The notes beneath the pieces were generated by a model that saw nothing but the letters and a program-made list of their open reading frames with translations, ran no database searches and had not been told where the DNA came from. A DNA stretch of 64,000 bases from a virus, in IMG/VR virus record IMGVR_UViG_3300048914_000231, positions 50,063-114,062 of that record; one strand, 5' to 3'. The number at the start of each line of letters is the position of its first letter. Position 1 is the first letter of the stretch. The position numbers and the translations under genes are program-made. Shown piece after piece: positions 19,422 to 50,080 of the stretch.

Positions 19422-21071
19422 TTACTTCGTGTCCTTGCTTACGCTGCCCTGGCCGGGCCTGGCGTTCGCGGTGGCGGGCGCCTTGGCTCCGCCGGTGGTT
19501 GCGGTCAGCTTGCCGGCGCCGGTAGCCTCGGCCAGCTGGCCCGCAAGTTCAACCGGGTCGACCGGCCATTCCTTGAGCGAGGCGATCATTTTCTCTTTGA
19601 TCGCTTTGGCCACTTGCGGAAACAGCTTGTCGATCACGGCGTTCATCTGCTCGCGACGCACCTCGTCAGGTGCCTCGATGAGCATCAGGCGGGCGGCGAT
19701 ATCGAACTCGTCGTACAGGCCACGCGTGTCGAAGTTGTCCGGGTAGGACACCAGCTTCATACCTTCCGGGATGGTTTCGCCATGCCAGAGTGCGACCAGT
19801 TCTGCGATCCGGTTCTCGGTCACTTCCAGGCTGTCGGCTTTCGCCTGCAGCAGGGCGTTGACGCGTTCGAAGTCGTACGCCTTCGCCACGCCCGAACTGT
19901 TGTCGATGCCCACGGAGTTGTCCTCCTTGGTGCGCTCGCCAGCCAGGCCGGACGTGTGGTAAATCTCGTTGATGATCTTGTTGACCATGGCCAGCACCAT
20001 CTGTGCCTGCTTCGGGTCCGGCGAAATGTAGCCCGGCGTGCCGCCGCCTTCGCCGTCGTACAGAAACACGCGCTTGGTGCCCATGTCTTCCAGCACACGC
20101 GCGGTGTCCGAACCGGGCAGCACGTTCTGGGCCGGCATCACCAGCTGGCTGAAGGTCTGGTCCTGGATGATGGCGTCCAGGTTCGACAGGTAGTTGGCCA
20201 CGGCGCGGTCGAGGTAGGCGATCTCGTCGATGAACGACGGCGCCACGTAATCCTCGTCCGTGATGATGTGGTCGCACAGCACCACCGGCACCTTGTTCAG
20301 GTTGTGGCTGCCTTCGTCAACGACGACGATTCTGGTCTTTTTCGTGTTGCCGACCTGGCGTTCCTCCAGCAGGTGCCAGGACTGGCGCGTCCACAGACGC
20401 CAGCGGGTTTTCTGCGCGCCGCTGGAAGTCAGCGGATCCTGGTCGTCACGCGCGACTTCCAGCAGCAAAATCCAGTTCAGTTCGCCGTCATCGTCATTCC
20501 ACGAGAAGTCGAGAATCTGGGTCGGGCCGACCGCGTACGCATACGTGCGCACGCCGGCGCGACGCTCGTCCGCCTTGGACAGAACGACGTCGGCCGGCGC
20601 GTTGTTGTCGACCACGATCGCCACGCGACCGGAAATCGAGCTCTTGCGCGCGGCCTGACGCATGAAGTCGCGGATACCCAGGTTGTTCTTGGTGGACGAC
20701 TCCCAGAAGCGTTTGATGCATTCCGGGGCGTCGTCGGTGTTGCGGGTGATGTTCTGCTTGAACAGGTATTTGTTCAGCAGGTCAACCACTTCCTTGGTGT
20801 GGTTGAAGCGGTACGCGCGCTTGACGCGGTCGCCGTATTCGCCATCACCTTCCTTGATATAGCGGAAGACGTTCCCTTCCAGGAACCACTCGCGCCCGCC
20901 CTCATAGGTCGATTCCAGGAATTTCCAGTGCTGGGTGTGTTCCTCGTACTCCGGGTGCCGGCGGTTGACCAGATGGCGCAGGACTTTCTGGTCATCGCTC
21001 ATGATGGGCGACGACGCCTCGTCTTTTTGCAGATCGATCGTGGCTGTGGCGCCTGGTTTTGTGATATTCAT
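19422..21071 (-). CDS. Portal protein
   Basis: A 549-residue protein between terL and scaffold. The N-terminal EYEEHTQHWKFLESTYEGG and the NKYLFKQNITRN helix, the central beta-rich part with RWRLWTRQSWHLLEE, and a long C-terminal helical crown fit phage portals of this size. It forms the dodecameric DNA channel and docks terminase. It has its own operator-bearing promoter. The acidic and proline-alanine C-terminus is probably flexible. Confidence 0.85.
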   Translation of the reverse strand: MNITKPGATATIDLQKDEASSPIMSDDQKVLRHLVNRRHPEYEEHTQHWKFLESTYEGGREWFLEGNVFRYIKEGDGEYGDRVKRAYRFNHTKEVVDLLNKYLFKQNITRNTDDAPECIKRFWESSTKNNLGIRDFMRQAARKSSISGRVAIVVDNNAPADVVLSKADERRAGVRTYAYAVGPTQILDFSWNDDDGELNWILLLEVARDDQDPLTSSGAQKTRWRLWTRQSWHLLEERQVGNTKKTRIVVVDEGSHNLNKVPVVLCDHIITDEDYVAPSFIDEIAYLDRAVANYLSNLDAIIQDQTFSQLVMPAQNVLPGSDTARVLEDMGTKRVFLYDGEGGGTPGYISPDPKQAQMVLAMVNKIINEIYHTSGLAGERTKEDNSVGIDNSSGVAKAYDFERVNALLQAKADSLEVTENRIAELVALWHGETIPEGMKLVSYPDNFDTRGLYDEFDIAARLMLIEAPDEVRREQMNAVIDKLFPQVAKAIKEKMIASLKEWPVDPVELAGQLAEATGAGKLTATTGGAKAPATANARPGQGSVSKDTK

Positions 21072-21111: not shown

Positions 21112-22359
21112 TCAGCGAGACTTGCCGCCGATCTCGATCTTCCGCAGCGGGAATTCCAGTTCGATGCAGTAGCCGCCAGCGTCGGCGCTGTGTTCAACCC
21201 CGGCCGCCTTGTCGACGTCGCGCGAACCCGGCTTGTAGATGGTCTGCTCCAGTGCATTGATGAAATGCTTGCAGCGGATGTCCACGCGCAGCCGGATCGT
21301 GCCGTCGGCCGTGCGCAGCATGCGGTTGACCGCGTTGACGCGGTCGGCCACGGCCGGGTGCTTGCGCCGGAACTTGATGCGCTTGAAGCCCTTCTCGCGC
21401 AGGATGTCCAGGTCAGTCTCGCCGCGCGCGTGCTGGCGCTGGCCGCCGGCCGGGTCGGGGTAGATGATGATCTGCAGCATATGGCGCCAGTAGCGCTTTT
21501 CCAGCTCCTCGCACACCTCTTCGGTATTGGATGAGAACAGCACGATCTCGTCGACCGCCCACACCTCACCGTTGGGCTGTGGCTGAAAGATCACGGTCGA
21601 CATCGGGTCGATGTTGAAGTCCATGCCGACCCAGATTGGCAGCTTCGGGTTGAACGGGTACTGGCCCACGTGTTCGTTGCGGTCAAACGGATAGTAGACG
21701 CGGCCGGACATGGTCTCGAAACTGGCTTCGAATTCCTGCTTGAACGATTTTTCGTCCATGTCCTGCTTGGCCGCCTCGATCTCCGAGATCGGGATGAACG
21801 GCGACGTGATGGTCGGGAACTGCCAGGATTCCCATGCGTGCTTGGCCACGTTGGCCGGATCCTGGCCGCGCTTGTACAGTTCGTACAGGTAGTTGTAGGC
21901 CTTGGGCGTGCCGATGAAAATCGCGTCGCCGCGACGGTCGGCCAGAACCGGGCGCAGAACCTTGACCCAGGTATCGGCATCGATGTCCTGAAATTCGTCG
22001 AGCACCAGGAAGTCGACACCGACACCGCGCAGGGAATCACCCTTGTCGGCGCCCTTGAGCTCGATGACGGTGCCATTCAGTAGCGTGACTTCGAGGCGTG
22101 TCTCGTTGACCTTCTTGACCCAGCGGCGCGGGATTGCGTCGAGCAGGTCGGACCACATGATCTGCTTGGCCATCTTGTAGGTTGGGGCGACGTACCAGAT
22201 TTTGCGCTTCTTGACGCGTGCGCGCGTGATCATCAGCGTCTTGGCCAGCTGGGTCTTGCCCCACCGGCGGCCAGCCACCACGACGCGAAAACGCGCCTGC
22301 GACTTGTAGACGACCATCTGCTTCGGATGCAGGGTCAGGCTGGCAATCTTGGCGGCCAT
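21112..22359 (-). CDS. terL: Terminase large subunit
   Basis: A 415-residue packaging motor. The ATPase domain shows Walker A AGRRWGKT (residues 29-36) and Walker B FLVLDE with an FQD follow-on (117-125). The RNase-H-like nuclease domain starts near GMDFNIDPMSTVIFQ with its first catalytic aspartate. It pumps DNA through the portal and cuts the concatemer. The start overlaps the terS stop (TGATG). Length is at the low end for TerL but all core parts are present. Confidence 0.95.
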   Translation of the reverse strand: MAAKIASLTLHPKQMVVYKSQARFRVVVAGRRWGKTQLAKTLMITRARVKKRKIWYVAPTYKMAKQIMWSDLLDAIPRRWVKKVNETRLEVTLLNGTVIELKGADKGDSLRGVGVDFLVLDEFQDIDADTWVKVLRPVLADRRGDAIFIGTPKAYNYLYELYKRGQDPANVAKHAWESWQFPTITSPFIPISEIEAAKQDMDEKSFKQEFEASFETMSGRVYYPFDRNEHVGQYPFNPKLPIWVGMDFNIDPMSTVIFQPQPNGEVWAVDEIVLFSSNTEEVCEELEKRYWRHMLQIIIYPDPAGGQRQHARGETDLDILREKGFKRIKFRRKHPAVADRVNAVNRMLRTADGTIRLRVDIRCKHFINALEQTIYKPGSRDVDKAAGVEHSADAGGYCIELEFPLRKIEIGGKSR

Positions 22360-22988
22360 CAGCCTTCCTCGACCACATTGTTGCCGTCTTCTTCGTCGGG
22401 CGGGTCGCCGTCATCCCCGTCATCGTCCTTCTGTGGCGCCACATCGTCCATTTCGTCATGGTCGCGGTCGCGCAGCGCCTGAATCTGGTCGGCGGTCAGT
22501 TCGGTGATCTGCAGCTCCGGCACCTCGTCCGGATCGACCGCATCCGGGCGGTCCAGACCCAGCACGGCCCAGCGCTCCTCGCGCACCTTCTTCAGGCCGG
22601 TGGCGGCCAGGTCCAGCGCCTTCAGGTTGTTGATCACGCTGGAGACCGGGTTACCGGCCTTTTTCGCTTCCAGCAGTTCGTTCCAGATCAGCTTGCCAAG
22701 GTTCGACGACATCACGTAGTGCTGTTCCTTGGTCTCCTTGATGCGCGCCGCCAGAATGGTCGCCTCGTCGACGGAAGCCGCAACCAGCCTGTCTTCCACC
22801 GCCTTGCGGGTGGCGGCTGCGGCCGAACCCTTGACAATGTGGTGTTTTTTGAAATGTCGTTCGAAGGTCGACATGGCGCAGCCGTACTTGGCGACCAGGT
22901 CGTCGTAGGTAACGGTGCCGGCCGCCCACTGGGCTTCAGCTTCTGCCCACTGGGCCGGCGTCAGGCGGCGTTTCGGGTTCTCGGACAC
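22359..22988 (-). CDS. terS: Terminase small subunit, GTG start
   Basis: A 209-residue protein. I place the start at the GTG at 22988 (VSENPKRRLTPAQW) because an AAAGG site precedes it; the frame extends to an ATG at 23078, but that lies upstream of a terminator and inside the predicted promoter. Residues about 10-60 read as a helix-turn-helix DNA-binding part (TYDDLVAKYGCAMSTFERHF), then a coiled middle and a very acidic C-terminus (EEDGNNVVEEG). It recognises the packaging site and loads TerL. Confidence 0.85.
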   Translation of the reverse strand: MSENPKRRLTPAQWAEAEAQWAAGTVTYDDLVAKYGCAMSTFERHFKKHHIVKGSAAAATRKAVEDRLVAASVDEATILAARIKETKEQHYVMSSNLGKLIWNELLEAKKAGNPVSSVINNLKALDLAATGLKKVREERWAVLGLDRPDAVDPDEVPELQITELTADQIQALRDRDHDEMDDVAPQKDDDGDDGDPPDEEDGNNVVEEG

Positions 22989-23005
22989 GTGCAAACCTTT
23001 CAAGC

Positions 23006-23034
23006 AAAAAAAACGGGCGCAGGGAAGGCGCCCG
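23006..23034 (-). terminator. Terminator in the terS leader
   Basis: Minus-strand stem CGGGCGC / GCGCCCG with a 7-nt loop followed by eight U residues, 18 nt before the GTG of terS. It would stop transcripts arriving from the 28-23 kb operon, but it also lies downstream of the predicted terS promoter. Confidence 0.88.
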
Positions 23035-23066
23035 AGGAGAACAATGGAAAAGCTGTTCAGGCCCCA

Positions 23067-23110
23067 ACTGTAAAACATATTTCCTCAGGATGTCAAGTCA
23101 GTGCTGACTT
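23067..23110 (-). promoter_or_regulatory. terS promoter with operator on the -35
   Basis: Minus strand: -35 TTGACA (23091-23096), 18-nt spacer, -10 TACAGT (23067-23072). The perfect palindrome AAGTCAGTGCTGACTT (23095-23110) overlaps the -35 just as at the capsid promoter. Start would be near 23060, about 26 nt before the leader terminator. Confidence 0.65.
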
Positions 23111-23329: not shown

Positions 23330-23701
23330 TTACAAAATGTCCGGAATGATGGATTCCAGCACCGGTTCCAGGTCCGCGGAGAGGATGTCCGCCCCCAGTT
23401 CGATGATGTTGTCCACCTCCTGCGGGCGTGCCCGTGCGCTGGCCTGGCCGTACCCGCGGCCCTCGTCCGTGACCGTGATCAGGCGCCGGGCCGCGCCGCG
23501 GCGCTTCTCGATGCCCAGTTTCTTGACCAGGCCACGGTCGATCAGCACGCGCAGCGAGAACTGCAGGCTGTCCTTGGTGGTGTGATAGCGGATCCGCTCC
23601 AGAATCTGGTCCATGTCGCACGGCGTGCCGTCGTCGTTGGCGGCGGTGATCACGCGCATCAGTTCCAGCTGTTTGGCGGTCAGGTGCGGGGTTTTCGTCA
23701 T
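23330..23701 (-). CDS. Winged-helix regulator-like protein
   Basis: A 123-residue protein starting MTKTPHLTAKQ at 23701; the longer open frame upstream overlaps the GNAT gene in another frame. Residues about 7-85 fit a winged helix: LTAKQLELMRVI, then DMDQILERIRYHTTKDSLQFSLRVLIDRGLVKKL and a basic wing RRGAARRLITVTDEG. The C-terminal 25 residues are acidic. It is the last gene of the 28-23.3 kb operon and ends beside the AT-rich element, which it might bind; that is inference. Confidence 0.75.
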   Translation of the reverse strand: MTKTPHLTAKQLELMRVITAANDDGTPCDMDQILERIRYHTTKDSLQFSLRVLIDRGLVKKLGIEKRRGAARRLITVTDEGRGYGQASARARPQEVDNIIELGADILSADLEPVLESIIPDIL

Positions 23702-23715
23702 TTTGTAACTGCCGG

Positions 23716-24606
23716 TTAAGCGGGGTTGAGCGGCTCGGTTACAGCCTGGTTGTCGAACGCCAGTACGTTGATGCGCTCGGGCAGGCTGCGGCCAAAGTCC
23801 GGGTTGGTATAAATGCCATACAGCGGGCTGGCCAGCACCAGCTGCTGCAGGCTCTTGAGCAGGTAACCGACTTCCATCGCGTCGACCCGGGACGTGCCGT
23901 TGGCGCGGTTGTCGCCCGATTTCTCCATCGACGAGCAGCGATAGTAGAACTTGCGCATTTCGTCGACGCATTTGGCGCGCACCGCCGGCGGGAATGCGTC
24001 GAGCTCGGCCCTGATGCCCACATAGTCCATCGGCACCGAGCGGAACCAGCGCCCGAAGAACGCCAGACCCTTTTCGTAATGGCTGCTGCGCTTGGGTTTT
24101 GTGAAGCGCATGCCGGCTTTTGCCGCGAACGGGTTGAATTTGCTCATCGACGACTGGAATTCGACGAAGCGGCAGCCGGTCATGCGCATCATGAGGTTCT
24201 GCATGCGGTAGGCGATGCCGGCGCCGCGGAACATCGTGTCCAGCACCAGACGCGAGTTCGTGCAGCTGTGCTCGTTCAACCACATCGCGCGGGTTCGGTT
24301 GATCAGCTTCGTGTCGCGTCCATTCTGGTTCGGGCGCATGTGGGGCATCGCTTCGTTACGGCCCGACAGCAGCATCTTGGGCACGGTCATGACGCCCACG
24401 CCGATCACCTGACCATCGAGCACGCAGCGGTAGATTTTCGGCCCGATGCCGAGGTTTTCCGCCTTGTAGTGCAGCTCGTGCAGCAAGTTCCAGTCTTCCT
24501 TGGTACCGCGCTCGACGTAGACGCGGTCCAGCAGCGACAGGCGGTGGTTGGCCGGCACCGGCCGGCGCTCGACCAGCAGGTTGTCGTTGTCGATCAGGAC
24601 GGTCAT
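23716..24606 (-). CDS. GNAT-fold acyltransferase-like protein of the ABC-associated type
   Basis: A 296-residue protein; the ATG at 24606 overlaps the preceding peptide stop. A GNAT-like core is visible: CVLDGQVIGVGVMTVP as strands 2-4, and TMFRGAGIAYRMQNLMMRM as the RGxG-type cofactor loop and helix, then FVEFQSSMSKFNPFAAKAGM. ABC ATPases fused to a GNAT-like domain form COG2401; here the two are separate genes in one operon, which supports a joint role. Mom of phage Mu is a GNAT-fold DNA-modifying enzyme, so base modification is a reasonable hypothesis. Substrate is unknown. Confidence 0.75.
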   Translation of the reverse strand: MTVLIDNDNLLVERRPVPANHRLSLLDRVYVERGTKEDWNLLHELHYKAENLGIGPKIYRCVLDGQVIGVGVMTVPKMLLSGRNEAMPHMRPNQNGRDTKLINRTRAMWLNEHSCTNSRLVLDTMFRGAGIAYRMQNLMMRMTGCRFVEFQSSMSKFNPFAAKAGMRFTKPKRSSHYEKGLAFFGRWFRSVPMDYVGIRAELDAFPPAVRAKCVDEMRKFYYRCSSMEKSGDNRANGTSRVDAMEVGYLLKSLQQLVLASPLYGIYTNPDFGRSLPERINVLAFDNQAVTEPLNPA

Positions 24607-24656
24607 TTCTTCACCCCGCCGCCGAAGATGATCAGAATGATGGCGAGCCAGCTCAT
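24603..24656 (-). CDS. 17-residue hydrophobic peptide
   Basis: Very short frame MSWLAIILIIFGGGVKK with an ATGA overlap at both ends: the start overlaps the stop of the 24-residue peptide, and the stop overlaps the GNAT start. A single membrane-like segment. The double coupling suggests it is translated, if only to pass ribosomes on to the GNAT gene. Confidence 0.45.
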   Translation of the reverse strand: MSWLAIILIIFGGGVKK

Positions 24657-24727
24657 GTCGGCCACTTCCAGATGAGAATGACGCCCACGGCAATCATGCC
24701 GAGACCAAAACAGTCAAACGTGCTCAT
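24653..24727 (-). CDS. 24-residue membrane peptide
   Basis: Frame MSTFDCFGLGMIAVGVILIW ending KWPT. The ATG overlaps the thioredoxin stop (ATGA) and its own stop overlaps the next ATG. One transmembrane-like segment with a tryptophan-lysine end. Coupling on both sides argues for real translation; function unknown. Confidence 0.5.
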   Translation of the reverse strand: MSTFDCFGLGMIAVGVILIWKWPT

Positions 24728-25035
24728 GCCGGCACTCCCGCCGCGGCCAGGAATGAACGCAGCCTGGCGTCGGTCTGGCCGCCCGAGACCGATGCCTGGG
24801 CAGCGCCATCCCTGAACACGGTCAGGGTCGGTACGCCGCGCACGCCGTGCACGCTGGCGAGAGTGCGGTGTTCGCCGGCGTCGACGCCGATCAGCCTGAA
24901 ACCCAGTTCCGCGGCGAGCGCCTCAACCAGCGGCTTCATGCCCTTGCAGGGGCCGCACCAGCTGGCGTGGAACATGACGACGGTGGTGCCGGCGCCGACG
25001 TCTGCGGCGAAGTTTTCGGGGGTGGTGTTGTGCAT
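24724..25035 (-). CDS. Thioredoxin-like protein
   Basis: A 103-residue protein. Active site WCGPCK near residue 25, a cis-proline in GVRGVPTLTVF, and full thioredoxin length. AAGGA precedes the ATG at 25035; the longer frame is a shadow of the ABC gene. It could reduce the phage ribonucleotide reductase, whose C-terminus ends in a CESC pair, but its place inside the ParB/ABC/GNAT operon suggests a role there too. Confidence 0.9.
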   Translation of the reverse strand: MHNTTPENFAADVGAGTTVVMFHASWCGPCKGMKPLVEALAAELGFRLIGVDAGEHRTLASVHGVRGVPTLTVFRDGAAQASVSGGQTDARLRSFLAAAGVPA

Positions 25036-25037
25036 GT

Positions 25038-25730
25038 TCAGTCCTTGATGGGGTCGGTCGGGTGCGGCGGCTCCCTGAAGCCGTCGGCGCTGGCGCCGGG
25101 GCGCAGAATGCGCACCTTTTCCCGGTAGCGTTTTTCGATATAGAGGCTGGGCGCCAGGTCGTCGACCATGTCGCCGTGAGTGGTGGCGACAATCACGGTG
25201 GCGCCCACCTTGCGCGCGATCTTCTGCAGGTTGAAGGCGAGCACCTTCGCGGTCACGCGGTCGAGCACGGCCAGAAATTCGTCGGCGACCCATACCTGCG
25301 CGCCGGATTCGATGATCTTGGCCAGGCGGAAGCGGTAGCGTTGGCCGTCCGACAGTTCGGCGGGTTTCCGGATGAACAGGTAGGCGTCGTTCAGGCCGGC
25401 GATCGACAGGAAGTTCAGTGCCTCGGTCGTGTTCTTGCCGATCTGGTCGATCAGCGGGCAGTCCAGCAGCGGCACCTCGTCGATGGTAACAACATTCAGG
25501 CCGCCCTCGACCATGCGTTCTGCCAGTTCGCGCAGCACGGTCGACTTGCCGGCGCCGGACTGGCCCGTGACGTACACAATGTCGCCCTGTTCGATGTCGA
25601 TCGGCTGGTTGTCAAAGACGACGAATTCCTTGTCATCCAGGCCCAGGCCGAAGGCTTCGGCGATCTCCAGCACGCGGTCGGTGCGCTCGACGGTTGTATG
25701 AAACCGCTTGTCGATTTTGTATGTTGTCAT
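25038..25730 (-). CDS. ABC-type ATPase without membrane partner
   Basis: A 230-residue soluble ABC ATPase. Walker A GQSGAGKST (near 55), an LSDGQ signature in place of LSGGQ (near 130), and Walker B VWVADEFLAVLDR (near 155) with the catalytic acidic residue, then an H-loop region TTHGD. No permease gene is nearby, so it is not a transporter. It resembles the ATPase half of COG2401 ABC-GNAT fusions. GGAG precedes the ATG; the start overlaps the upstream stop (ATGA). Likely powers or gates the GNAT/ParB system. Confidence 0.85.
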   Translation of the reverse strand: MTTYKIDKRFHTTVERTDRVLEIAEAFGLGLDDKEFVVFDNQPIDIEQGDIVYVTGQSGAGKSTVLRELAERMVEGGLNVVTIDEVPLLDCPLIDQIGKNTTEALNFLSIAGLNDAYLFIRKPAELSDGQRYRFRLAKIIESGAQVWVADEFLAVLDRVTAKVLAFNLQKIARKVGATVIVATTHGDMVDDLAPSLYIEKRYREKVRILRPGASADGFREPPHPTDPIKD

Positions 25731-25909
25731 TGCTGTCTCCAGGCTTTCAGGCACTGCGCCGGCGACAGCGCATCCATTTCGGTTTTCGGGTTGACGCAGC
25801 TGGCATGTACCAGCACGCGTACGGTCGCCCAGTACACGACGCGGCGCGGCAGACAGTACGCGATCGCGCCGCACAGGTGGTCCAGGATGTCGCTGATCAG
25901 TTCTTTCAT
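25727..25909 (-). CDS. Small cysteine-containing protein
   Basis: A 60-residue frame coupled at both ends by ATGA overlaps between the ParB-like gene and the ABC gene. N-terminal helix MKELISDILDHLCGAIAY, a basic PRRVVYW turn, then a second hydrophobic helix. No known motif. The double overlap in a co-transcribed operon is the main support. Confidence 0.65.
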   Translation of the reverse strand: MKELISDILDHLCGAIAYCLPRRVVYWATVRVLVHASCVNPKTEMDALSPAQCLKAWRQQ

Positions 25910-26550
25910 GCGATCCCCGCGAACTGGCTGACGAATTCGACGAAGGCGTCAGCACCCTTCTTGCCGGTATCGGCCTCGATCTGTGCCATGAACATCGCGA
26001 TGGCGCGCTGGTCTGCGCCCCTGACGGTCTTGAAGCCCAGCGCCTGCGCGATCGGCACGCCCTTTTCGGTCGCGGCCGCGATTTGCCCCTTGGTTTCGAC
26101 GGCCTGCGCGGCGATTTCGGCGTCCAGGTCGGTGACGAAGGCGGCATCATTGACCTCGCCCAGATCGGCGGTCATGAAGTCCAGTTCCTTCCTGTCGAAG
26201 AACAGGTCCATCGAGAAGTCCAGCGTGGCCAGTTCCTGCTGCAGCAGGTCGGTGTCGATGTTGCCGATGGCGACGCGGTTGTCGGCCAGGCGCAGCGCGC
26301 GCACCTGCGCCGGCGTCAGGTCGTCGCGCACCCACACCGGCACCTTTCTGTCGCCGCGCGACAGGCCGGCCAGGCGCCGGCCGTGGCCGGCAATGATCAC
26401 GCCATCCTTGTCGACGACGATCGGCTGGGTCCAGCCGAATTCGTCGATGGACTTTCTGATCTTCGCCACCTGGGCGTCGTCGTGGATTTTCGAGTTGAGC
26501 TCGTAGGGCACCAGGCGGGCGATGTCCCAGACTTGAATATTCGGTTTCAT
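25906..26550 (-). CDS. ParB/sulfiredoxin-fold protein 1
   Basis: A 214-residue protein, start MKPNIQVWDIARLVPY at 26550, overlapping the upstream stop. The ParB/Srx core is clear: IRKSIDEFGWTQPIVVDKDG, the GHGRRLAG box near residue 60, and LTPAQVRALRLADNRVA. It has no centromere-binding helix-turn-helix of true partition ParB after the core; the C-terminal 90 residues are alanine-rich helices. In phages this fold is often linked to DNA modification or nuclease activity; CTP binding is also possible. Second of two ParB-fold genes in this operon. Confidence 0.85.
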   Translation of the reverse strand: MKPNIQVWDIARLVPYELNSKIHDDAQVAKIRKSIDEFGWTQPIVVDKDGVIIAGHGRRLAGLSRGDRKVPVWVRDDLTPAQVRALRLADNRVAIGNIDTDLLQQELATLDFSMDLFFDRKELDFMTADLGEVNDAAFVTDLDAEIAAQAVETKGQIAAATEKGVPIAQALGFKTVRGADQRAIAMFMAQIEADTGKKGADAFVEFVSQFAGIA

Positions 26551-26726
26551 GGAATGAATGAGAGCAGATAAAAGATGCACCACAAGAAGATCAGGACCGG
26601 CGTGCAGAAAATCAGGAAAGTTGCGGCCAGAAGTTCGCAATGCGCCTCGCGCGTGGTGGCGATCCAGAATGTGACCATCAGGACCAGGACGACCAGGACG
26701 AACGGGACGACATACCAGTGGATCAT
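26547..26726 (-). CDS. Small two-segment membrane protein
   Basis: A 59-residue protein with hydrophobic segments at about residues 4-24 and 35-57 and a short polar loop between them (TTREAHCELL). The start overlaps the stop of the 40-residue gene and the stop overlaps the ParB start, so it is coupled. Function unknown. Confidence 0.65.
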   Translation of the reverse strand: MIHWYVVPFVLVVLVLMVTFWIATTREAHCELLAATFLIFCTPVLIFLWCIFYLLSFIP

Positions 26727-26845
26727 CGCTTGATCTCCTTCATGAGCGCGTGGTAGCCGGCGACCATGAGGGCCGCGGTGCCGGCAGCGATGGTCGTGCA
26801 CGCGCAGACCGTACAGGTCCAGACGAAAACGTCCGGCGGGGTCAT
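26723..26845 (-). CDS. 40-residue membrane peptide with cysteines
   Basis: Start MTPPDVFVWTCTVCACTTIA at 26845 overlaps the stop of the Acb2-like gene. Three cysteines precede an alanine-rich membrane-like segment and a basic tail (KEIKR). Coupled on both sides. Function unknown. Confidence 0.6.
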   Translation of the reverse strand: MTPPDVFVWTCTVCACTTIAAGTAALMVAGYHALMKEIKR

Positions 26846-27132
26846 CACAGGGCCTCCGGCTGGGCCAGCGCGCGCACGAGCGCCATCACGCCCTCCTGAA
26901 AGTGCGTGCGGCCGATGGAGGCCCAGCGCTCCGGTTCGGCGGCGTTCATGCGCATGGATTCGCGCACCTGATGCTCGTCCTCCATGCTGCGGCACTTGTC
27001 GCGCTGGGCGGCGATATGCTCACGCACCTCGCGCACCAGTTCCAGCAGCACCTTTTCATGCAGCTTGACCTTGTTGATCAGGTCCAGCGTATCCTGATCG
27101 AGCTGGCGATAACCTTTGATCGGGTTGCTCAT
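26845..27132 (-). CDS. acb2: Acb2-like anti-CBASS cyclic nucleotide sponge
   Basis: A 95-residue helical-hairpin protein. The N-terminal IKGYRQLDQDTLDLINKVK and the C-terminal RWASIGRTHFQEGVMALVRA followed by LAQPEAL match the pattern of the phage Acb2/Vs.4 family, which forms hexamers that sequester cyclic oligonucleotide signals of CBASS (and in some cases Thoeris signals). Tyr8 and Lys23 have the same 15-residue spacing as the ligand-binding Tyr and Lys that I recall for PaMx33 Acb2 (Y11 and K26). The 2-gene position early in the operon fits an early-expressed anti-defence protein. Confidence 0.85.
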   Translation of the reverse strand: MSNPIKGYRQLDQDTLDLINKVKLHEKVLLELVREVREHIAAQRDKCRSMEDEHQVRESMRMNAAEPERWASIGRTHFQEGVMALVRALAQPEAL

Positions 27133-27141
27133 GTGGTTCTC

Positions 27142-27306
27142 CTATGCTGCTTCCGGCAGACGCCGGAAGCGGATGGGGTGTTCGGTGAGGGTGTCTTCCG
27201 CGAGTGGCTCGAACATGTCGCCGTCATCGCATTCGTCGCACATGTAGGAGAGCTCCTGGTTGGAGCAGTCCTCGCAAAATTCGTAGCCCTTGTTGCAGCG
27301 CGCCAT
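27142..27306 (-). CDS. Small zinc-ribbon-like protein
   Basis: A 54-residue protein with cysteines spaced CEDC and CDEC (FCEDCSNQELSYMCDECDDG), a likely zinc knuckle, followed by an acidic and then basic tail. It lies between the second ParB-like gene and the Acb2-like gene in the coupled operon. May bind nucleic acid or a protein partner; nothing more can be said. Confidence 0.65.
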   Translation of the reverse strand: MARCNKGYEFCEDCSNQELSYMCDECDDGDMFEPLAEDTLTEHPIRFRRLPEAA

Positions 27307-27307
27307 G

Positions 27308-27967
27308 TCAGACCCCGATGTCCTTGAAGATGTGCACCAGCGCATTGCCGGCGTTGGTGAGGCTGTCCTCGTCGTCGAAGCGCTGGCGCTTTTTGACGGC
27401 GTTGATCTTGGCGGTGATGGTGTCGACGTCCTCGACCGGCACCTTGAAGCGCATGATGGCGTGGGTCTGTGCGGCGCGAACGGTCGGCGCGCCCGGGGCC
27501 GGGCCGGCGGTATCGTCCAGATCGAGCGCGTCAAGCTCGTCGAGCGCTATATTGCTGGTATTGAAGATCGATTCGAAATCGACGTCCGTATAGGGCAGGA
27601 AGACGCCCAGCTCGCCGGGCGTGCCCAGTTCGTCGAGCAGCTTGGACAGGGCGATGCTGTCGTCGTTGCCGTAGCGGCCATTGTCGACCAGACCGATCTC
27701 CTTGGCCTGCCTGTCGCTGATGCTGCCGAGGTTGATGACCGGCACCTTGTCGATTTTCAGGCGGATCGCCGAGTCCCGGCGGTGTGCGCCACCCAGGATT
27801 TGCAGCGTGCCGTCGGCAAGGGTGCGCACGATGATCGGCTTGAACATGCCGAAGCGCTTGACCGAGGCGTCGATTTTCGCCTCGTTCTCCGGGGAGACCA
27901 CGTTGGTGTTCCAGGGGTTGGGCTGGAGCGTGTGGGGGTCGGCGTAATGCTGGGTGGTAGTTGACAT
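27308..27967 (-). CDS. ParB/sulfiredoxin-fold protein 2
   Basis: A 219-residue protein and first gene of the operon, starting MSTTTQHYADPHTLQPNPWN at 27967 (17th codon of the longest frame). ParB/Srx core: IDASVKRFGMFKPIIVR, GGAHRRDSAIR in place of the GxxR box, then DRQAKEIGLVDNGRYGNDD. The C-terminal region is acidic with a separate alpha-beta segment (HAIMRFKVPVEDVDTITAKI). Overall similarity to ParB 1 is only in the core. Two different ParB-fold proteins in one operon could act as a pair. Confidence 0.85.
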   Translation of the reverse strand: MSTTTQHYADPHTLQPNPWNTNVVSPENEAKIDASVKRFGMFKPIIVRTLADGTLQILGGAHRRDSAIRLKIDKVPVINLGSISDRQAKEIGLVDNGRYGNDDSIALSKLLDELGTPGELGVFLPYTDVDFESIFNTSNIALDELDALDLDDTAGPAPGAPTVRAAQTHAIMRFKVPVEDVDTITAKINAVKKRQRFDDEDSLTNAGNALVHIFKDIGV

Positions 27968-28008: not shown

Positions 28009-28038
28009 TTAGCATCCAACTTTTGAATTGGCAACCAA

Positions 28039-29766
28039 ATGGAAAAAGTAACGATCGCGCGTAACGCCGTGACAGCCATGCTGCACAAGCCCAGTCGCGA
28101 TGTAAAACTGGAAGTGCAGGCGATTCTGTCGTACGCGGTCGCCGGCGCCGAGCATGCGATCGCCTTCAAAAAGGGGGTGTGGGACGGGCGCTCGTCGTTC
28201 CTGGACTTCAGGAACGGCACCTTCCCGGCCGGCTTTACGCACTACGTCACGGCGCACCTGCGGCGCAAGGGGTACGAGGTGCAGATCGCCCAGAAGGCCC
28301 TGCCCGAGCCGCTCGGCCCGGAAAACCCGGTGGTCGACGCCTTTCCGGAAGACCCGCGCTACGACTACCAGATGGAAACCGTGCGGCGTCTGGTCAAGCA
28401 CGGCCAGATCATCGCCCAGATCGCCACCGGCGGCGGCAAGAGCCGTACCGCGCGCCTGGCGTACGCGCGCATCAACCGCATGACCCTGTTCATCACGACG
28501 CGCTCGATCCTCATGTACCAGATGAAGGACAGTTTCGAGCGCGACCTTGGCGTGCCGGTATCGGTGCTGGGCGATGGCCAGTTCGGTCACACCACGTCGG
28601 ACGGGCGCCAGGCGGTGCGCAAGATGTGCGTCGGCATGGTGCAGACCCTGGCGGCCAAGCTGAAGGAAAAGACGGTCGAGGGCGAAGTCGAGGCCGTGAT
28701 CGACGCGCTGGTGGCCAGGGAGCTCAAGGCGGTCAAGGCGCTGGAGAAGAAGCTGGTCGACGCCGGTGCCACGCCGGCGCAGGTCAGGGCCCGGGTCAGG
28801 CAGCTGGAAGAACAGCAGCTGGCCGCGCGCTCGGACTCGAAAAAGATCCAGGCCGATTGCGCCGTCAAGGTGCATGAGCACATGGCGATGCGCGCGCGGG
28901 TGATTGAATTGCTGGGCCGGTTCGAATTCGTGATCATCGAAGAGGCGCACGAGGCATCGGCCGAGGATTTCTACAACGTCATGCAGCACTGCAAGAGCGC
29001 GCACTACCGCATGGCGCTGACGGCGACGCCGTTCATGAAGGCCGACGAAGAGGCGAACATGCGCCTGATGGCGGTGTCCGGCCCGATCGCGATCAAGGTG
29101 TCCGAGCAGACCCTGATCGACCGCGGCATTCTGGCCCAGCCGCATTTTCGCTTCATCCCGTGGGCCGGCAAGCCGCCCAAGCTGTTCAAGCACACCGGCT
29201 GGGCGTCGGCGTACCGGCTTGGCATCACCGAGCACGAATGGCGCAACCAGACCGCGACCGCCGTGTGCCGGCGCTTTGCCGAGTATGGTCTGACGTCGAT
29301 GGTGCTGGTACAGCACACCGCGCACGGTGAGACCGTCAGGCGCCTGATGCTGGCCGCCGGCCTGCGCGTGGATTTCATCCAGGGCGAGGATGACCAGGAC
29401 GGGCGCAAGGCAGCACTGCAGCGCCTGGCGCGCGGCGAACTCGACATCCTGATCGGCACCACGATCCTCGACGTCGGCGTGGACGTGCCGGCCGTCGGTC
29501 ACATCTGCCTGCTGGGTGGTGGCAAGGCCGAGGTGCAGCTGCGTCAGCGTATCGGGCGCGGCCTGCGCGAGAAGAAGAACGGCATGCCGAACCTGTGCTT
29601 TGTGACCGACTTCGCCGACACGCTCAACGAGCACCTGCACAACCATGCCAGACAGCGTCAGGCGATCATCAGGGACACGCCGGGATTCGACCGCTTCATC
29701 CTCTCCGACGGGCGCGACTTCGACCTGGAGGCGCTCGGCTTCAGGCGGCTGGCGGCAGCGGCGTGA
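28039..29766 (+). CDS. SF2 DNA helicase, UvsW-like
   Basis: A 575-residue protein. Motif I ATGGGKS (near residue 135), motif II IIEEAHE (near 300) in place of DEAH, motif III LTATPF, and motif VI QRIGRGLRE (near 500). Between motifs I and II is a charged coiled insert of about 70 residues (LKEKTVEGEVEAVIDALVAR and on). The N-terminal 110 residues resemble the UvsW DNA-binding start. In T4 the relative unwinds branched DNA and R-loops. It heads the only plus-strand block and has an operator-bearing promoter. The ribosome site is weak. Confidence 0.85.
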   Translation: MEKVTIARNAVTAMLHKPSRDVKLEVQAILSYAVAGAEHAIAFKKGVWDGRSSFLDFRNGTFPAGFTHYVTAHLRRKGYEVQIAQKALPEPLGPENPVVDAFPEDPRYDYQMETVRRLVKHGQIIAQIATGGGKSRTARLAYARINRMTLFITTRSILMYQMKDSFERDLGVPVSVLGDGQFGHTTSDGRQAVRKMCVGMVQTLAAKLKEKTVEGEVEAVIDALVARELKAVKALEKKLVDAGATPAQVRARVRQLEEQQLAARSDSKKIQADCAVKVHEHMAMRARVIELLGRFEFVIIEEAHEASAEDFYNVMQHCKSAHYRMALTATPFMKADEEANMRLMAVSGPIAIKVSEQTLIDRGILAQPHFRFIPWAGKPPKLFKHTGWASAYRLGITEHEWRNQTATAVCRRFAEYGLTSMVLVQHTAHGETVRRLMLAAGLRVDFIQGEDDQDGRKAALQRLARGELDILIGTTILDVGVDVPAVGHICLLGGGKAEVQLRQRIGRGLREKKNGMPNLCFVTDFADTLNEHLHNHARQRQAIIRDTPGFDRFILSDGRDFDLEALGFRRLAAAA

Positions 29767-30458: not shown

Positions 30459-30754
30459 AAGACAGGGCACCCGGGCCGAAGCCGGTTGAGGTGTGCCGGC
30501 ATGTATTCCGGCACGCGACGCTGAAGACGATCAATGCCAGGGTTGACCACATCGAATGGATCTTCTTCGAAGGTGAGAAATGGCCGCGCCAGCTGGTGTA
30601 TTTCACGAATGGATCGACCACGTTTGACGCCGCCGCACAGTGGACGCTGGCCCAGGCCAATGCGCTGGCCGAAACGGGCAACTGGACCAGGGAAATCTTC
30701 ATGACCGTGGAAAACGACAGGCCGGATGCATCGTACGGTACGGAGGTATGGTGA
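30455..30754 (+). CDS. Unknown protein of array operon, GTG start
   Basis: A 99-residue protein starting at a GTG at 30455 that overlaps the previous stop (GTGA). Contains HIEWIFFEGEKWPRQLVYF and a helix DAAAQWTLAQANALAETGNW; reads as a compact alpha-beta protein. It ends TEVW, with the DNA GAGGTATGGTGA forming both the ribosome site and the start of the next gene: the first of eight identical 7-nt overlaps. Confidence 0.75.
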   Translation: MKDRAPGPKPVEVCRHVFRHATLKTINARVDHIEWIFFEGEKWPRQLVYFTNGSTTFDAAAQWTLAQANALAETGNWTREIFMTVENDRPDASYGTEVW

Positions 30755-31029
30755 ACCTGCTGTTTATTGAACTGCATTCTGAAAAACTCAGGGATACCGC
30801 GCCGTTTGTGACGGCGTACGACCTGGATTATCCCGGGCCGAACAAGCGTCAGTGGCGCGTCGACAGGGCGCGCGGTGTCGAGTCCGGGGTCAATCGCGAT
30901 GGGAGTGGCATGCGGGGTGTATGGGCGTATCTGGCGGCCGGCACCTGGCTGCAGCTGACGCAGCAGGAAGCCTATACCAAATTTCCTGAACTGCAGACGG
31001 CGATCGAAAACTGGGTGGAGCCATGGTAA
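30748..31029 (+). CDS. Unknown protein of array operon
   Basis: A 93-residue protein (MVNLLFIELHSEKLRD start). Beta-rich first half with YDLDYPGPNKRQWRVDRARG, then WAYLAAGTWLQLTQQEAYTKF and a VEPW end. It may relate distantly to the previous gene. Joined to both neighbours by 7-nt ATGGTxx overlaps. Confidence 0.75.
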   Translation: MVNLLFIELHSEKLRDTAPFVTAYDLDYPGPNKRQWRVDRARGVESGVNRDGSGMRGVWAYLAAGTWLQLTQQEAYTKFPELQTAIENWVEPW

Positions 31030-31379
31030 ATCTGAGCAACAGCATAACGTACGAGAACTACCTGTACCTGCGCCGGCAGCTGGGTGAACAGGAAAACGGC
31101 GACTGGCCGTCGTCATCATGGAACATCATGTCGGCATCAGGCACGCAAAACGTGATCAACACCATGCTTGCCAAATGCGAAAACCTGATGCGCGAGCGTG
31201 ATCTGTCATGGGAGGCGTACAAGAAAGTGTGGAGCAAGGGGTCGGTGCCTGCGTATTTAAATCCGACCGCCTGGGAGGAAGCGCCGCTGTTCATCAAGGC
31301 GGCCATCATCAAGCCGCGTGAGGTGGGTATCGTTGACGTGCGCGAGGACGTGCCGCAAAGCGAGGTGACGCCATGGTGA
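31023..31379 (+). CDS. Array paralogue 1, two-unit protein
   Basis: A 118-residue protein that seems to hold two copies of the array unit: ITYENYLYLRRQL with W at about 32, and LSWEAYKKVWSKG with W at about 83, ending SEVTPW. The unit pattern is (S/T)-aromatic-x2-Y-x3-7, a tryptophan about 15-20 residues on, then a hydrophobic helix. It may be the fused product of two ancestral single-unit genes. Function unknown. Confidence 0.75.
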   Translation: MVNLSNSITYENYLYLRRQLGEQENGDWPSSSWNIMSASGTQNVINTMLAKCENLMRERDLSWEAYKKVWSKGSVPAYLNPTAWEEAPLFIKAAIIKPREVGIVDVREDVPQSEVTPW

Positions 31380-31588
31380 GATACCGGCCCGACGGACGCA
31401 AAATTGACACGAGCTACGCCAACTATCTGCGTCTGGCCGGTTTGAACCTGATCAGCGCCGACAACCAGCTGACGTCGAACGACTGGAACTGGCTTGATAT
31501 GGACGGCAAGGCTGGTGAAATCGAGCGCCTGATGAACCTGGCCGAAGTGCGCGACCGGCCGGAAAGCGGCGGGGTGGTGGCATGGTAG
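31373..31588 (+). CDS. Array paralogue 2
   Basis: A 71-residue protein. Unit pattern: TSYANYLRLAGLNL, then NDWNWLDMDGKAGEIERLMNL, ending GGVVAW. Both ends form 7-nt overlaps with neighbours. The N-terminal 12 residues (RYRPDGRKID) extend the unit. Function unknown. Confidence 0.75.
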   Translation: MVRYRPDGRKIDTSYANYLRLAGLNLISADNQLTSNDWNWLDMDGKAGEIERLMNLAEVRDRPESGGVVAW

Positions 31589-31785
31589 AGCGTCTGTCCT
31601 ACCGTCATTACAAGTCGCTTCATTTTGCCGCCGGTTATGGAGAAGGTGAACTGGCCGACATCGTCATGTGGATGGATACGCCCGACCAGCTGAAACTCGC
31701 CGAGATTGAAATGCTGGAAGAACGCCTGCGCGAGATTCGTGACGAGGTGTCCGATATACCAACCAGCATGGTGACGCCATGGTAA
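31582..31785 (+). CDS. Array paralogue 3
   Basis: A 67-residue protein. Unit pattern: LSYRHYKSLHFAAGYGEGEL, a WMDTPDQ turn, an acidic helix AEIEMLEERLREIRDEV and a TSMVTPW end. Coupled to both neighbours by 7-nt overlaps. Function unknown. Confidence 0.75.
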   Translation: MVERLSYRHYKSLHFAAGYGEGELADIVMWMDTPDQLKLAEIEMLEERLREIRDEVSDIPTSMVTPW

Positions 31786-31982
31786 AAGATTCAGCCTACC
31801 CTTACGAACGTTATGTGGAGTATTTCAAGATCGTCTGGCCAGGCATGCACCCGATGGATGAATATGAATGGTATGTGCGGCATGGACGCACGGCGCGCGC
31901 GAGGACGATCAAGATACTCGTTCGGCAGATTCCAGATCATCAGCGCAAAGCGCCATTCTTGAAGGAGAGGGTCACATGGTAG
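31779..31982 (+). CDS. Array paralogue 4
   Basis: A 67-residue protein, the most divergent member. YPYERYVEYFKIVW replaces the usual start of the unit, followed by EYEWYVRHGRTARARTIKIL and an ERVTW end. More basic than the others. GGAGAGGGT before the next ATG is the ribosome site. Function unknown. Confidence 0.7.
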   Translation: MVKDSAYPYERYVEYFKIVWPGMHPMDEYEWYVRHGRTARARTIKILVRQIPDHQRKAPFLKERVTW

Positions 31983-32182
31983 ACGTGAGCTATGACCGTT
32001 TTTACGCTTTGCGCAGGGCGCTGGATATGCCAGAAGAGGGGGAGGTGGCGCGCAGCAGGTGGGAGATTCTGCCGGAGGCGCATCGGCAAAGCGTCATCGC
32101 CATGATGACCGGCACGCTCAACGGGCGCAACACCGTCCTGTTCCCGTGCGACGCGCCTGAAAGTGAGGTGGTGCCATGGTAG
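31976..32182 (+). CDS. Array paralogue 5
   Basis: A 68-residue protein starting MVDVSYDRFYALRRALDMPE at 31976; the longer open frame upstream belongs to another reading frame of the previous gene. Unit pattern continues with RWEILPEAHRQSVIAMM and ends PESEVVPW. Close to paralogues 6 and 7. Coupled by 7-nt overlaps. Confidence 0.75.
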   Translation: MVDVSYDRFYALRRALDMPEEGEVARSRWEILPEAHRQSVIAMMTGTLNGRNTVLFPCDAPESEVVPW

Positions 32183-32385
32183 AGGATTGCACTTACGAGC
32201 AATACAAGGCGGCCTGCGTATCGATCAACGAAAAAGCATGTTGGACGCGAGGAGGATGGCTGGGCTTGGTCAAAGACGCGCGGATCGCGGTCATGGCAAA
32301 CCTGTTGAATGCCGGGGCCTGGTGGCCCGATAGGGAGCTTGGCGAGGGTGAGGATGTTCCAGAAACTGAGGTGACGCCATGGTAG
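32176..32385 (+). CDS. Array paralogue 6
   Basis: A 69-residue protein. CTYEQYKAACVSINEKA, then GGWLGLVKDARIAVMANLLNA and the VPETEVTPW end that matches paralogues 1 and 5. Coupled by 7-nt overlaps at both ends. Function unknown. Confidence 0.75.
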   Translation: MVEDCTYEQYKAACVSINEKACWTRGGWLGLVKDARIAVMANLLNAGAWWPDRELGEGEDVPETEVTPW

Positions 32386-32573
32386 AGGAATTGTCGTACG
32401 AAGCATATCTGCGTCTTCGGCGCGCCGCCAGGCGCGAGGAAGCGCATGACGTCTCGCGCGAATCCTGGGAAGGCGGCAAGGTGGCGCGACGCTTCGTCAT
32501 CAGCTGGCTCACGCGGGAGATCGGGCAGCGCGTCGATGCGCAGGAACTGCCCGAATGGGGAACATGGGGATAG
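32379..32573 (+). CDS. Array paralogue 7, last member
   Basis: A 64-residue protein. LSYEAYLRLRRAARREEA is the clearest copy of the unit start, followed by RESWEGGKVARRFVISWLTREI. It ends EWGTWG and lacks the EVTPW/ATGGT coupling cassette, as expected for the end of the chain. A short out-of-frame ATG overlaps the end. Confidence 0.75.
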   Translation: MVEELSYEAYLRLRRAARREEAHDVSRESWEGGKVARRFVISWLTREIGQRVDAQELPEWGTWG

Positions 32574-49336: not shown

Positions 49337-50080
49337 TCAGGATGCGACAGGTTCCGCACGCACTGTCCAGCCCTTGTGTTTCTCTTGTTCGCCCCTGGCG
49401 ACGCGCATCATGGCGCAGGCGTGAATGTCACGCGTGGCGCAGAAATGTTTCATGCTTGTGGCGACATGCTCAGTGCCGTCCGGGGCCGTGATCAGGTATC
49501 GGAACTTCACCTTTGCGGCGCGCTGCAGTTCCTTGGCCTCGTCGGTGTGACCTTTCCCAAGGAAGGCCGTCCTGGCGCGCTCCCGGTATGCTTCGCGCTT
49601 TTCGTCGGACCAGCAGGCCCGGCTGCTTTCGCTGACTCGCGCCCTCTCCTCGTCGGTCAACGGCCTGCGCCTCTTGCCCTTCGTCGCGGCGCTGATATTC
49701 GCGCGGTGCTCCTCGGTGAACGGGCCGCGCTTCTTGCCGCGTGCGGCCGCGGCTATCTTCTCCTTGGCTTCCTCGCTGAACTTGACGCCGAGCGTGCTGC
49801 CGGCCGTCTTGGCGATGTTGTAGAAGGGGTCGAGCCGATCCATGTGGCGCTGCTCCGCGGCGATCAGATCATCCTTTTCGACAAGCTCCACCACTTCGAA
49901 CAGAAATGCCGATTCGCCGTATTTGTTGAAGGCGGCCTGCAGCTTCCGGTTGCGGTGCTTGCCATTTCGAAGCTGCGACAGATGAATGTTCTTCCGCTTC
50001 CGGAGATTCACGGCGCTACCGATGTATTGCCGTGAATTCACCGCATTGGTGATGGAATAAATTCCACTCGCGTCGATCAT
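49337..50080 (-). CDS. GIY-YIG homing endonuclease 2
   Basis: A 247-residue protein. GIYSITNAVNSRQYIGSAVN holds the GIY and YIG motifs; NIHLSQLRNGKHRNRKLQAA and FNKYGESAFLFEVVE follow as in the catalytic core. The C-terminal part has repeated FxEEHRANISAATKGK-type modules and a helix-turn-helix-like end (TSMKHFCATRDIHACAMMRV). Similar plan to endonuclease 1 but only moderately similar sequence. It sits directly after the exonuclease gene. Confidence 0.93.
   Translation of the reverse strand: MIDASGIYSITNAVNSRQYIGSAVNLRKRKNIHLSQLRNGKHRNRKLQAAFNKYGESAFLFEVVELVEKDDLIAAEQRHMDRLDPFYNIAKTAGSTLGVKFSEEAKEKIAAAARGKKRGPFTEEHRANISAATKGKRRRPLTDEERARVSESSRACWSDEKREAYRERARTAFLGKGHTDEAKELQRAAKVKFRYLITAPDGTEHVATSMKHFCATRDIHACAMMRVARGEQEKHKGWTVRAEPVAS

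Follow-up and report, generated by a model that had tools for sequence, protein, structure and literature searches.

The last 64 kb of the virus record IMGVR_UViG_3300048914_000231 (positions 50,063 to 114,062 of 114,062 bases; hereafter the window) contain an operon of 13 genes in which two proteins of the ParB/sulfiredoxin (Srx) fold are brought together with a soluble ABC ATPase and a protein of the GNAT fold. The record is of the SSU5/Nickievirus kind. All 13 genes lie on the minus strand (27967→23330), and from 5' to 3' they encode ParB1, a Cys-rich protein of 54 amino acids (aa), a 95-aa Acb2-like protein, membrane peptides of 40 and 59 aa, ParB2, a 60-aa protein (p60), the ABC ATPase, a thioredoxin, hydrophobic peptides of 24 and 17 aa, the GNAT and a winged-helix-like (wHTH) protein (Table 1). 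The operon is flanked on its 5' side by a divergent gene for a UvsW-like helicase and is followed directly by TerS, TerL and portal. An earlier note on this DNA, made from the sequence alone, had described the 13 one-strand genes correctly, and every motif it quoted is present, including WCGPCK in the thioredoxin. Its statement that almost all of the genes overlap was slightly generous: eight of the 12 junctions are overlaps of 1 or 4 nucleotides (nt), and the other four are gaps of 1, 9, 2 and 14 nt. The note missed the Acb2/Tad1-type third gene and the continuation of the operon into TerS, TerL and portal.

The conservation of this arrangement was assessed on viral contigs, with the GNAT and the ABC ATPase as separate queries. 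Some of the 145 loci obtained were overlapping stretches of one contig; after removal of duplicates, 95 distinct ABC genes remained, and the 52 with at least 3.5 kb of flank to the left and at least 5.5 kb to the right formed the counted set, in which gene presence and order were scored by phmmer. A divergent helicase followed by ParB1–ParB2–ABC–GNAT–TerS–TerL–portal is found in this order in all 52 distinct loci, a recurrence that places the operon far beyond chance. The remaining genes vary: wHTH is present in 50 loci, the thioredoxin in 33, the Cys-rich protein in 13, and the Acb2-like protein and p60 in six each. Of the membrane peptides, those of 59 and 40 aa are hardly ever shared (one of the 52 loci each). 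The core therefore consists of ParB1, ParB2, ABC and GNAT, with wHTH as a near-core component, and the rest of the 13 genes are accessory. The proposal of the earlier note that all 13 form one system does not hold, since the small genes and the thioredoxin are dispensable across these loci. The note had also suggested looking for the same gene set in other phages, and among annotated phages the same 30 records hold both the GNAT and close homologues of the ABC ATPase, in an identical layout. They comprise SSU5 and related phages of Salmonella, Klebsiella and E. coli, as well as Nickievirus and phages of Stenotrophomonas and Rhizobium.

The ABC ATPase carries GQSGAGKST (Walker A) and the signature LSDGQ, and all of its catalytic motifs are intact: Walker A, the signature, the DE of Walker B and the H-loop are invariant across 23 relatives. 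Fused ABC–GNAT proteins of the phrog_11143 or COG2401 type served as the reference family. Since each of the two window proteins matches the corresponding half of these fusions in hhalign comparisons (ABC, 99.8% probability, E 5.5e-29; GNAT, 96.4%, E 1.1e-9), they are the two halves of such a fusion, encoded apart, as the earlier note had supposed. The window pair departs from the fused family in being encoded by separate genes and not as one polypeptide, but split forms also occur in P335, Javan420 and Vinitor-27, and two relatives were labeled by their depositors 'ABC-type ATPase fused to a predicted acyltransferase domain'. The GNAT itself has no match to a Pfam family, and a sequence search of the PDB with its profile returned nothing. 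An AlphaFold (AF2) model, for which three alignment rows from annotated records were excluded, was of good confidence (pLDDT 89.7, pTM 0.78). Searched with Foldseek against the PDB, this model retrieves GNATs, among them the TmcA/NAT10 nucleobase acetyltransferases; against viral models, the GNAT of the Leptospira phage LE4 ABC–GNAT fusion ranks fourth and a phage Mom seventeenth (E 9.7e-4), the latter amid many GNATs. On the strength of its model, the protein is assigned the GNAT fold, and the acyl-CoA loop signature R-x-x-G-x-[AGS], within RGAGIAYRM in the window, is shared by 28 of 29 relatives. A closeness to Mom at the sequence level, which the earlier note had brought into play, was not borne out: the Mom family (PF25680) gives no match in Pfam at E values up to 1, and a comparison with a seven-member Mom profile reached a non-significant probability of 11%.

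In Pfam, ParB_N is recognized in ParB1 (2.2e-8) and more weakly, below the cut-off, in ParB2 (4e-4). ParB1 contains GGAHRRD, with the GG.HR motif region conserved in relatives, and ParB2 contains GHGRRLAG, of which GHGR is invariant. ParB2 matches phrog_498, a family of ParB–DNA methyltransferase fusions, at 2.5e-37, and phrog_723, the family of ParB1, is the top match of the ParB that stands beside a fused ABC–GNAT in Arthrobacter phage EastWest. We also considered partition ParBs, which combine ParB_N with a helix-turn-helix (HTH) and lie beside parA; the window proteins are not of this type, as Pfam gives ParB_N alone and a ParA gene is not adjacent.

Were ABC–GNAT a DNA-modifying enzyme, the ParBs that accompany it would be expected to work with other enzymes of this sort elsewhere. 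On this premise, viral contigs were searched with ParBs of the kind paired with ABC–GNAT in other phages, and the fused or next gene was classified. Among 76 partners of the ParB of Javan420, there were 35 N6/N4 DNA methyltransferases, 13 TGT/DpdA-like proteins, 12 ABC–GNATs, five TET-associated glycosyltransferases (TAGT), four Mom proteins and two C5 methyltransferases, with five unassigned. Three of the ParBs fused to a methyltransferase are 83-89% identical to the Javan420 ParB over their N-terminal 131-140 residues. The ParB of Pmp13 gave a similar picture, with 55 methyltransferases, 11 ABC and/or GNAT proteins, eight Mom and two TAGT among its 80 partners; the other four comprised a pyridoxal phosphate (PLP) enzyme, a DUF4417 protein, a locus without a recognized gene and a contig edge. 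Nearly every identifiable partner in the ParB slot is thus a DNA-modifying enzyme, and this exchange of partners is the strongest functional evidence for DNA base modification. The 13 TGT/DpdA-like proteins (phrog_887) stand directly after a short ParB and ahead of the terminase (for example in loci L241, L245, L250, L263 and L229 of our searches). The PLP-dependent enzyme (PALP; L309:755-2382) and the ParB–DUF4417 fusion (L354:1259-2320) occupy the same slot; DUF4417 is a candidate for a DNA-modifying enzyme so far unrecognized as such.

The succession of ParB, ABC–GNAT (fused or split) and terminase extends to unrelated phages, including Streptococcus phages MismyG and Javan420, Lactococcus phage P335, Leptospira phage LE3, Pasteurella phage Pmp13 and Gordonia phage NHagos; Arthrobacter phage EastWest has a ParB and an ABC–GNAT fusion. 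Two Mu-like phages, Komp_PAO1_1 and phage011a_WW2952, have the fusion after their tail genes, in the region that holds com–mom in Mu, accompanied by a PurN-like formyltransferase, and in NHagos ParB, fusion and formyltransferase occur together. The formyltransferase (phrog_9240) follows the fusion in these Mu-like and Gordonia phages (L156:4944-6673, L158:4905-6505 and L007:630-2473) and may be a clue to the chemistry used in this branch. We further fetched 80 fused ABC–GNAT relatives from bacterial and archaeal genomes and classified 84 adjacent proteins, of which 45 are ParB-like, 13 are terminase small subunits and nine are formyltransferases. Fusions are frequent in genomes of Planctomycetota and also occur in two archaeal metagenome-assembled genomes (L365-L444). 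These copies are probably proviral, because many adjoin ParB-like and terminase genes. ABC and GNAT homologues keep company with ParB-fold genes in all 52 viral loci, and the earlier note's contrary case, that they might never co-occur, is clearly refuted.

Taken together, the identity of the domains, the intact active-site motifs, the homology to fusions, the invariant synteny and the swap with DNA-modifying enzymes lead us to propose that the core ParB1–ParB2–ABC–GNAT, with or without wHTH, is probably a late-acting DNA base-modification cassette that protects the phage DNA. ABC and GNAT would work jointly, as a phage ABC–GNAT enzyme divided over two genes. The ATPase might dimerize and, by ATP-driven closing, presumably open or clamp the DNA, so that a base is presented to the GNAT, which could then move an acyl group from acyl-CoA to the exocyclic amine of that base (N6 of adenine or N4 of cytosine). 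Choosing or presenting the DNA may fall to the ParB-fold proteins, a role apparently shared with the methyltransferases, Mom, glycosyltransferases and TGTs found in this slot elsewhere. Modification would take place late in infection, just ahead of packaging, and might shield virion DNA from restriction. It is conceivable that a glycinamide-type group is used in the phages that also hold the PurN-like gene; in the 114-kb record of the window, a search with positive controls found no formyltransferase, and equivalent searches found neither N6/N4 nor C5 methyltransferases. The earlier note had offered two options, that the operon hypermodifies DNA or senses modified DNA: the slot shared with DNA-modifying enzymes speaks for modification, and sensing is left unsupported.

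A more far-reaching version of this proposal is that the split ABC–GNAT, together with both ParBs, performs ATP-driven acylation of base amino groups, yielding an undescribed DNA base throughout the SSU5/Nickievirus group, with the fused form doing so in phages and prophages of many bacterial phyla and ParB acting as a general adaptor for whichever DNA-modifying enzyme a phage plugs in. We hold it tentatively, at slightly less than an even chance. The earlier note held that the chemistry would be new; an ABC ATPase-coupled GNAT was already predicted to make an acyl modification of a DNA base by Iyer, Zhang, Burroughs and Aravind in 2013 (NAR 41:7635), as cited in PMC7824862, which restates the prediction with Tenacibaculum phage pT24. 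The window is a split, two-ParB, terminase-fixed version of this already predicted and unproven kind; an experimental report of ABC–GNAT DNA modification was not found in the open-access literature. Should the proposal prove true, phage DNA hypermodification would gain a class so far only predicted, in which ATP hydrolysis is coupled to acyl transfer, and the many phage and phage-plasmid genes now labeled 'ABC transporter' or 'ParB partition protein' would be given a function. The swaps point to a simple rule, ParB ahead of the terminase and then a DNA-modifying enzyme, that could be used to find further modification enzymes.

Several observations weigh against a modification cassette. The sequences within each swap set are related, so that the counts are not independent events, though the enzyme kinds are, and the tests were made with ParBs of other phages and not with those of the window. 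The invariant synteny inside the SSU5/Nickie group is in part common descent. A ParB was not recognized next to ABC–GNAT in pT24 and PX29, and the window GNAT is, by the profile comparisons above, not close to Mom in sequence. Finally, no measured modified nucleoside was found in the open-access literature for any phage with the cassette, and neither restriction nor nucleoside analyses appear in the papers on Nickievirus phages or on the Leptospira phages.

The strict adjacency to TerS–TerL–portal, which extends to unrelated phages, would also be expected of packaging or segregation machinery in which the terminase receives DNA loaded or condensed by the ParBs and an SMC-like ABC protein, and a packaging protein is the target of the GNAT's acetylation. 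We consider this unlikely, though it is the best of the alternatives: in other phages this slot is taken by DNA methyltransferases, Mom, TAGT or TGT, the fusion of the Mu-like phages sits after the tail genes and away from the terminase, and the ParBs differ from the partition type as described above. Modification of host proteins by phage GNATs has precedents (PMC7824862, where the phage GNAT Rac is described), and an anti-defense sponge is encoded in the same operon; the GNAT could therefore acetylate a host protein, such as RNA polymerase or a defense protein. Such a takeover of the host appears improbable, as it leaves the obligate ParB and ABC partners and the swap with DNA-modifying enzymes unexplained. 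Slightly less probable still is a toxic or restriction function, in which ABC–GNAT would regulate ParB-fold proteins that attack competing DNA as nucleases or NTPases. Members of the ParB/Srx fold are capable of nicking DNA and of hydrolyzing nucleotides, as cited in PMC10853773 and PMC12839542, but the core has no recognized nuclease partner, and the ParB partners of other phages are modifying and not cutting enzymes. An ABC transporter with the tiny membrane peptides as its membrane part, as the depositors' product names in SSU5 and relatives and matches to nucleotide-binding-domain-like sequences in the PDB would have it, is very improbable, since these peptides (17-59 aa) occur in at most one of the 52 loci, a conserved transmembrane partner was not found, and the ABC protein is partnered by a GNAT whose homologue forms the second half of a soluble fusion.

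Besides the core, gene 3 of the operon can be assigned. Its product exceeds the cut-off of PF24729 (51.7 bits against 27) and matches solved Acb2; by homology it is a clear Acb2 relative and a predicted sponge, likely an anti-CBASS accessory that lies outside the modification core. For the Cys-rich protein, neither Pfam nor PHROGs gave a family match, and an in-frame ATG at 28015 is a possible alternative start of ParB1. Elsewhere in the window, about eight small genes of 64-118 aa (30748-32573, plus strand) are chained through the 7-mer ATGGTGA, such that a terminal W in one protein is followed by MV at the start of its neighbor; the arrangement suggests a tandem family whose small members have diverged.

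Table 1. Genes of the operon, in 5' to 3' order, and flanking genes (window coordinates; loci are those of the counted set)
Feature	Coordinates	Strand	Status	Basis
ParB1, ParB/Srx-fold, 219 aa	27308..27967	-	core	PF02195 2.2e-8; phrog_723 9e-60; 52/52 distinct loci
Cys-rich protein, 54 aa	27142..27306	-	accessory	13/52 loci
Acb2/Tad1-type cyclic-oligonucleotide sponge (predicted), 95 aa	26845..27132	-	accessory	PF24729 1e-13; PDB 8ixz/8h2j 1.1e-15; 6/52 loci
Membrane peptide, 40 aa	26723..26845	-	accessory	sequence; 1/52 loci by phmmer
Membrane peptide, 59 aa	26547..26726	-	accessory	sequence; 1/52 loci by phmmer
ParB2, ParB/Srx-fold, 214 aa	25906..26550	-	core	phrog_930 1.3e-79; phrog_498 2.5e-37; 52/52 loci
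p60, 60 aa	25727..25909	-	accessory	6/52 loci
Soluble ABC ATPase, 230 aa	25038..25730	-	core	PF00005 (ABC_tran) 1.5e-10; match to ABC half of fusions
Thioredoxin (WCGPCK), 103 aa	24724..25035	-	accessory	PF00085 1.5e-21; 33/52 loci
Hydrophobic peptide, 24 aa	24653..24727	-	accessory	sequence; 4-nt overlaps
Hydrophobic peptide, 17 aa	24603..24656	-	accessory	sequence; 4-nt overlaps
GNAT-fold protein, predicted base-modifying acyltransferase, 296 aa	23716..24606	-	core	phrog_886 1.7e-130; AF2 model; Foldseek; profile match to fused GNAT
wHTH protein, 123 aa	23330..23701	-	near-core	phrog_900 2.9e-19; 50/52 loci
TerS	22359-23078	-	context	invariant downstream neighbor; same order in all 52 loci and annotated phages
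TerL	21112-22359	-	context	invariant downstream neighbor; same order in all 52 loci and annotated phages
Portal	19422-21071		context	downstream of TerL
UvsW-like helicase, divergent	28039..29766	+	context	invariant upstream neighbor, 52/52 loci; annotated helicase in relatives

Among known and predicted systems, the ABC+GNAT pair of Iyer and colleagues consists of the same two enzymes, each homologous to its counterpart in the window, and pT24 was retrieved here as a relative of the fusion. The window differs in its separate genes, its two ParBs and wHTH, and its fixed order ahead of the terminase, and its GNAT (296 aa), whose C-terminal helical part is specific to the family, is longer. Mom of phage Mu shares with the window protein the GNAT fold and an HY motif near the N-terminus, and Mom was also found as a plug-in after ParB; mom of Mu, however, has no adjacent ABC gene, and its sequence relation to the window GNAT is not significant. 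A coupling of a GNAT to an ATPase domain, acting on the amino group of a nucleobase, is known from the RNA cytidine acetyltransferases TmcA/NAT10, which are structural matches of the GNAT model, but there the ATPase is of the helicase type and the substrate is RNA, so that the likeness is at the level of the fold only. Outside the core, the Acb2 anti-CBASS sponge (PDB 8h2j, 8ixz) has its homologue in the third gene. The Dpd system, with the ParB-like ATPase DpdB and the TGT DpdA, pairs a ParB-like protein with a base-modifying enzyme (PMC12839542), as do the ParB–TGT pairs described here, although it acts by base exchange through the TGT, where the window has ABC–GNAT. The ParB–DNA methyltransferase fusions of phrog_498, finally, contain a ParB of the same kind in the same slot ahead of the terminase, with a methyltransferase domain in place of ABC–GNAT.

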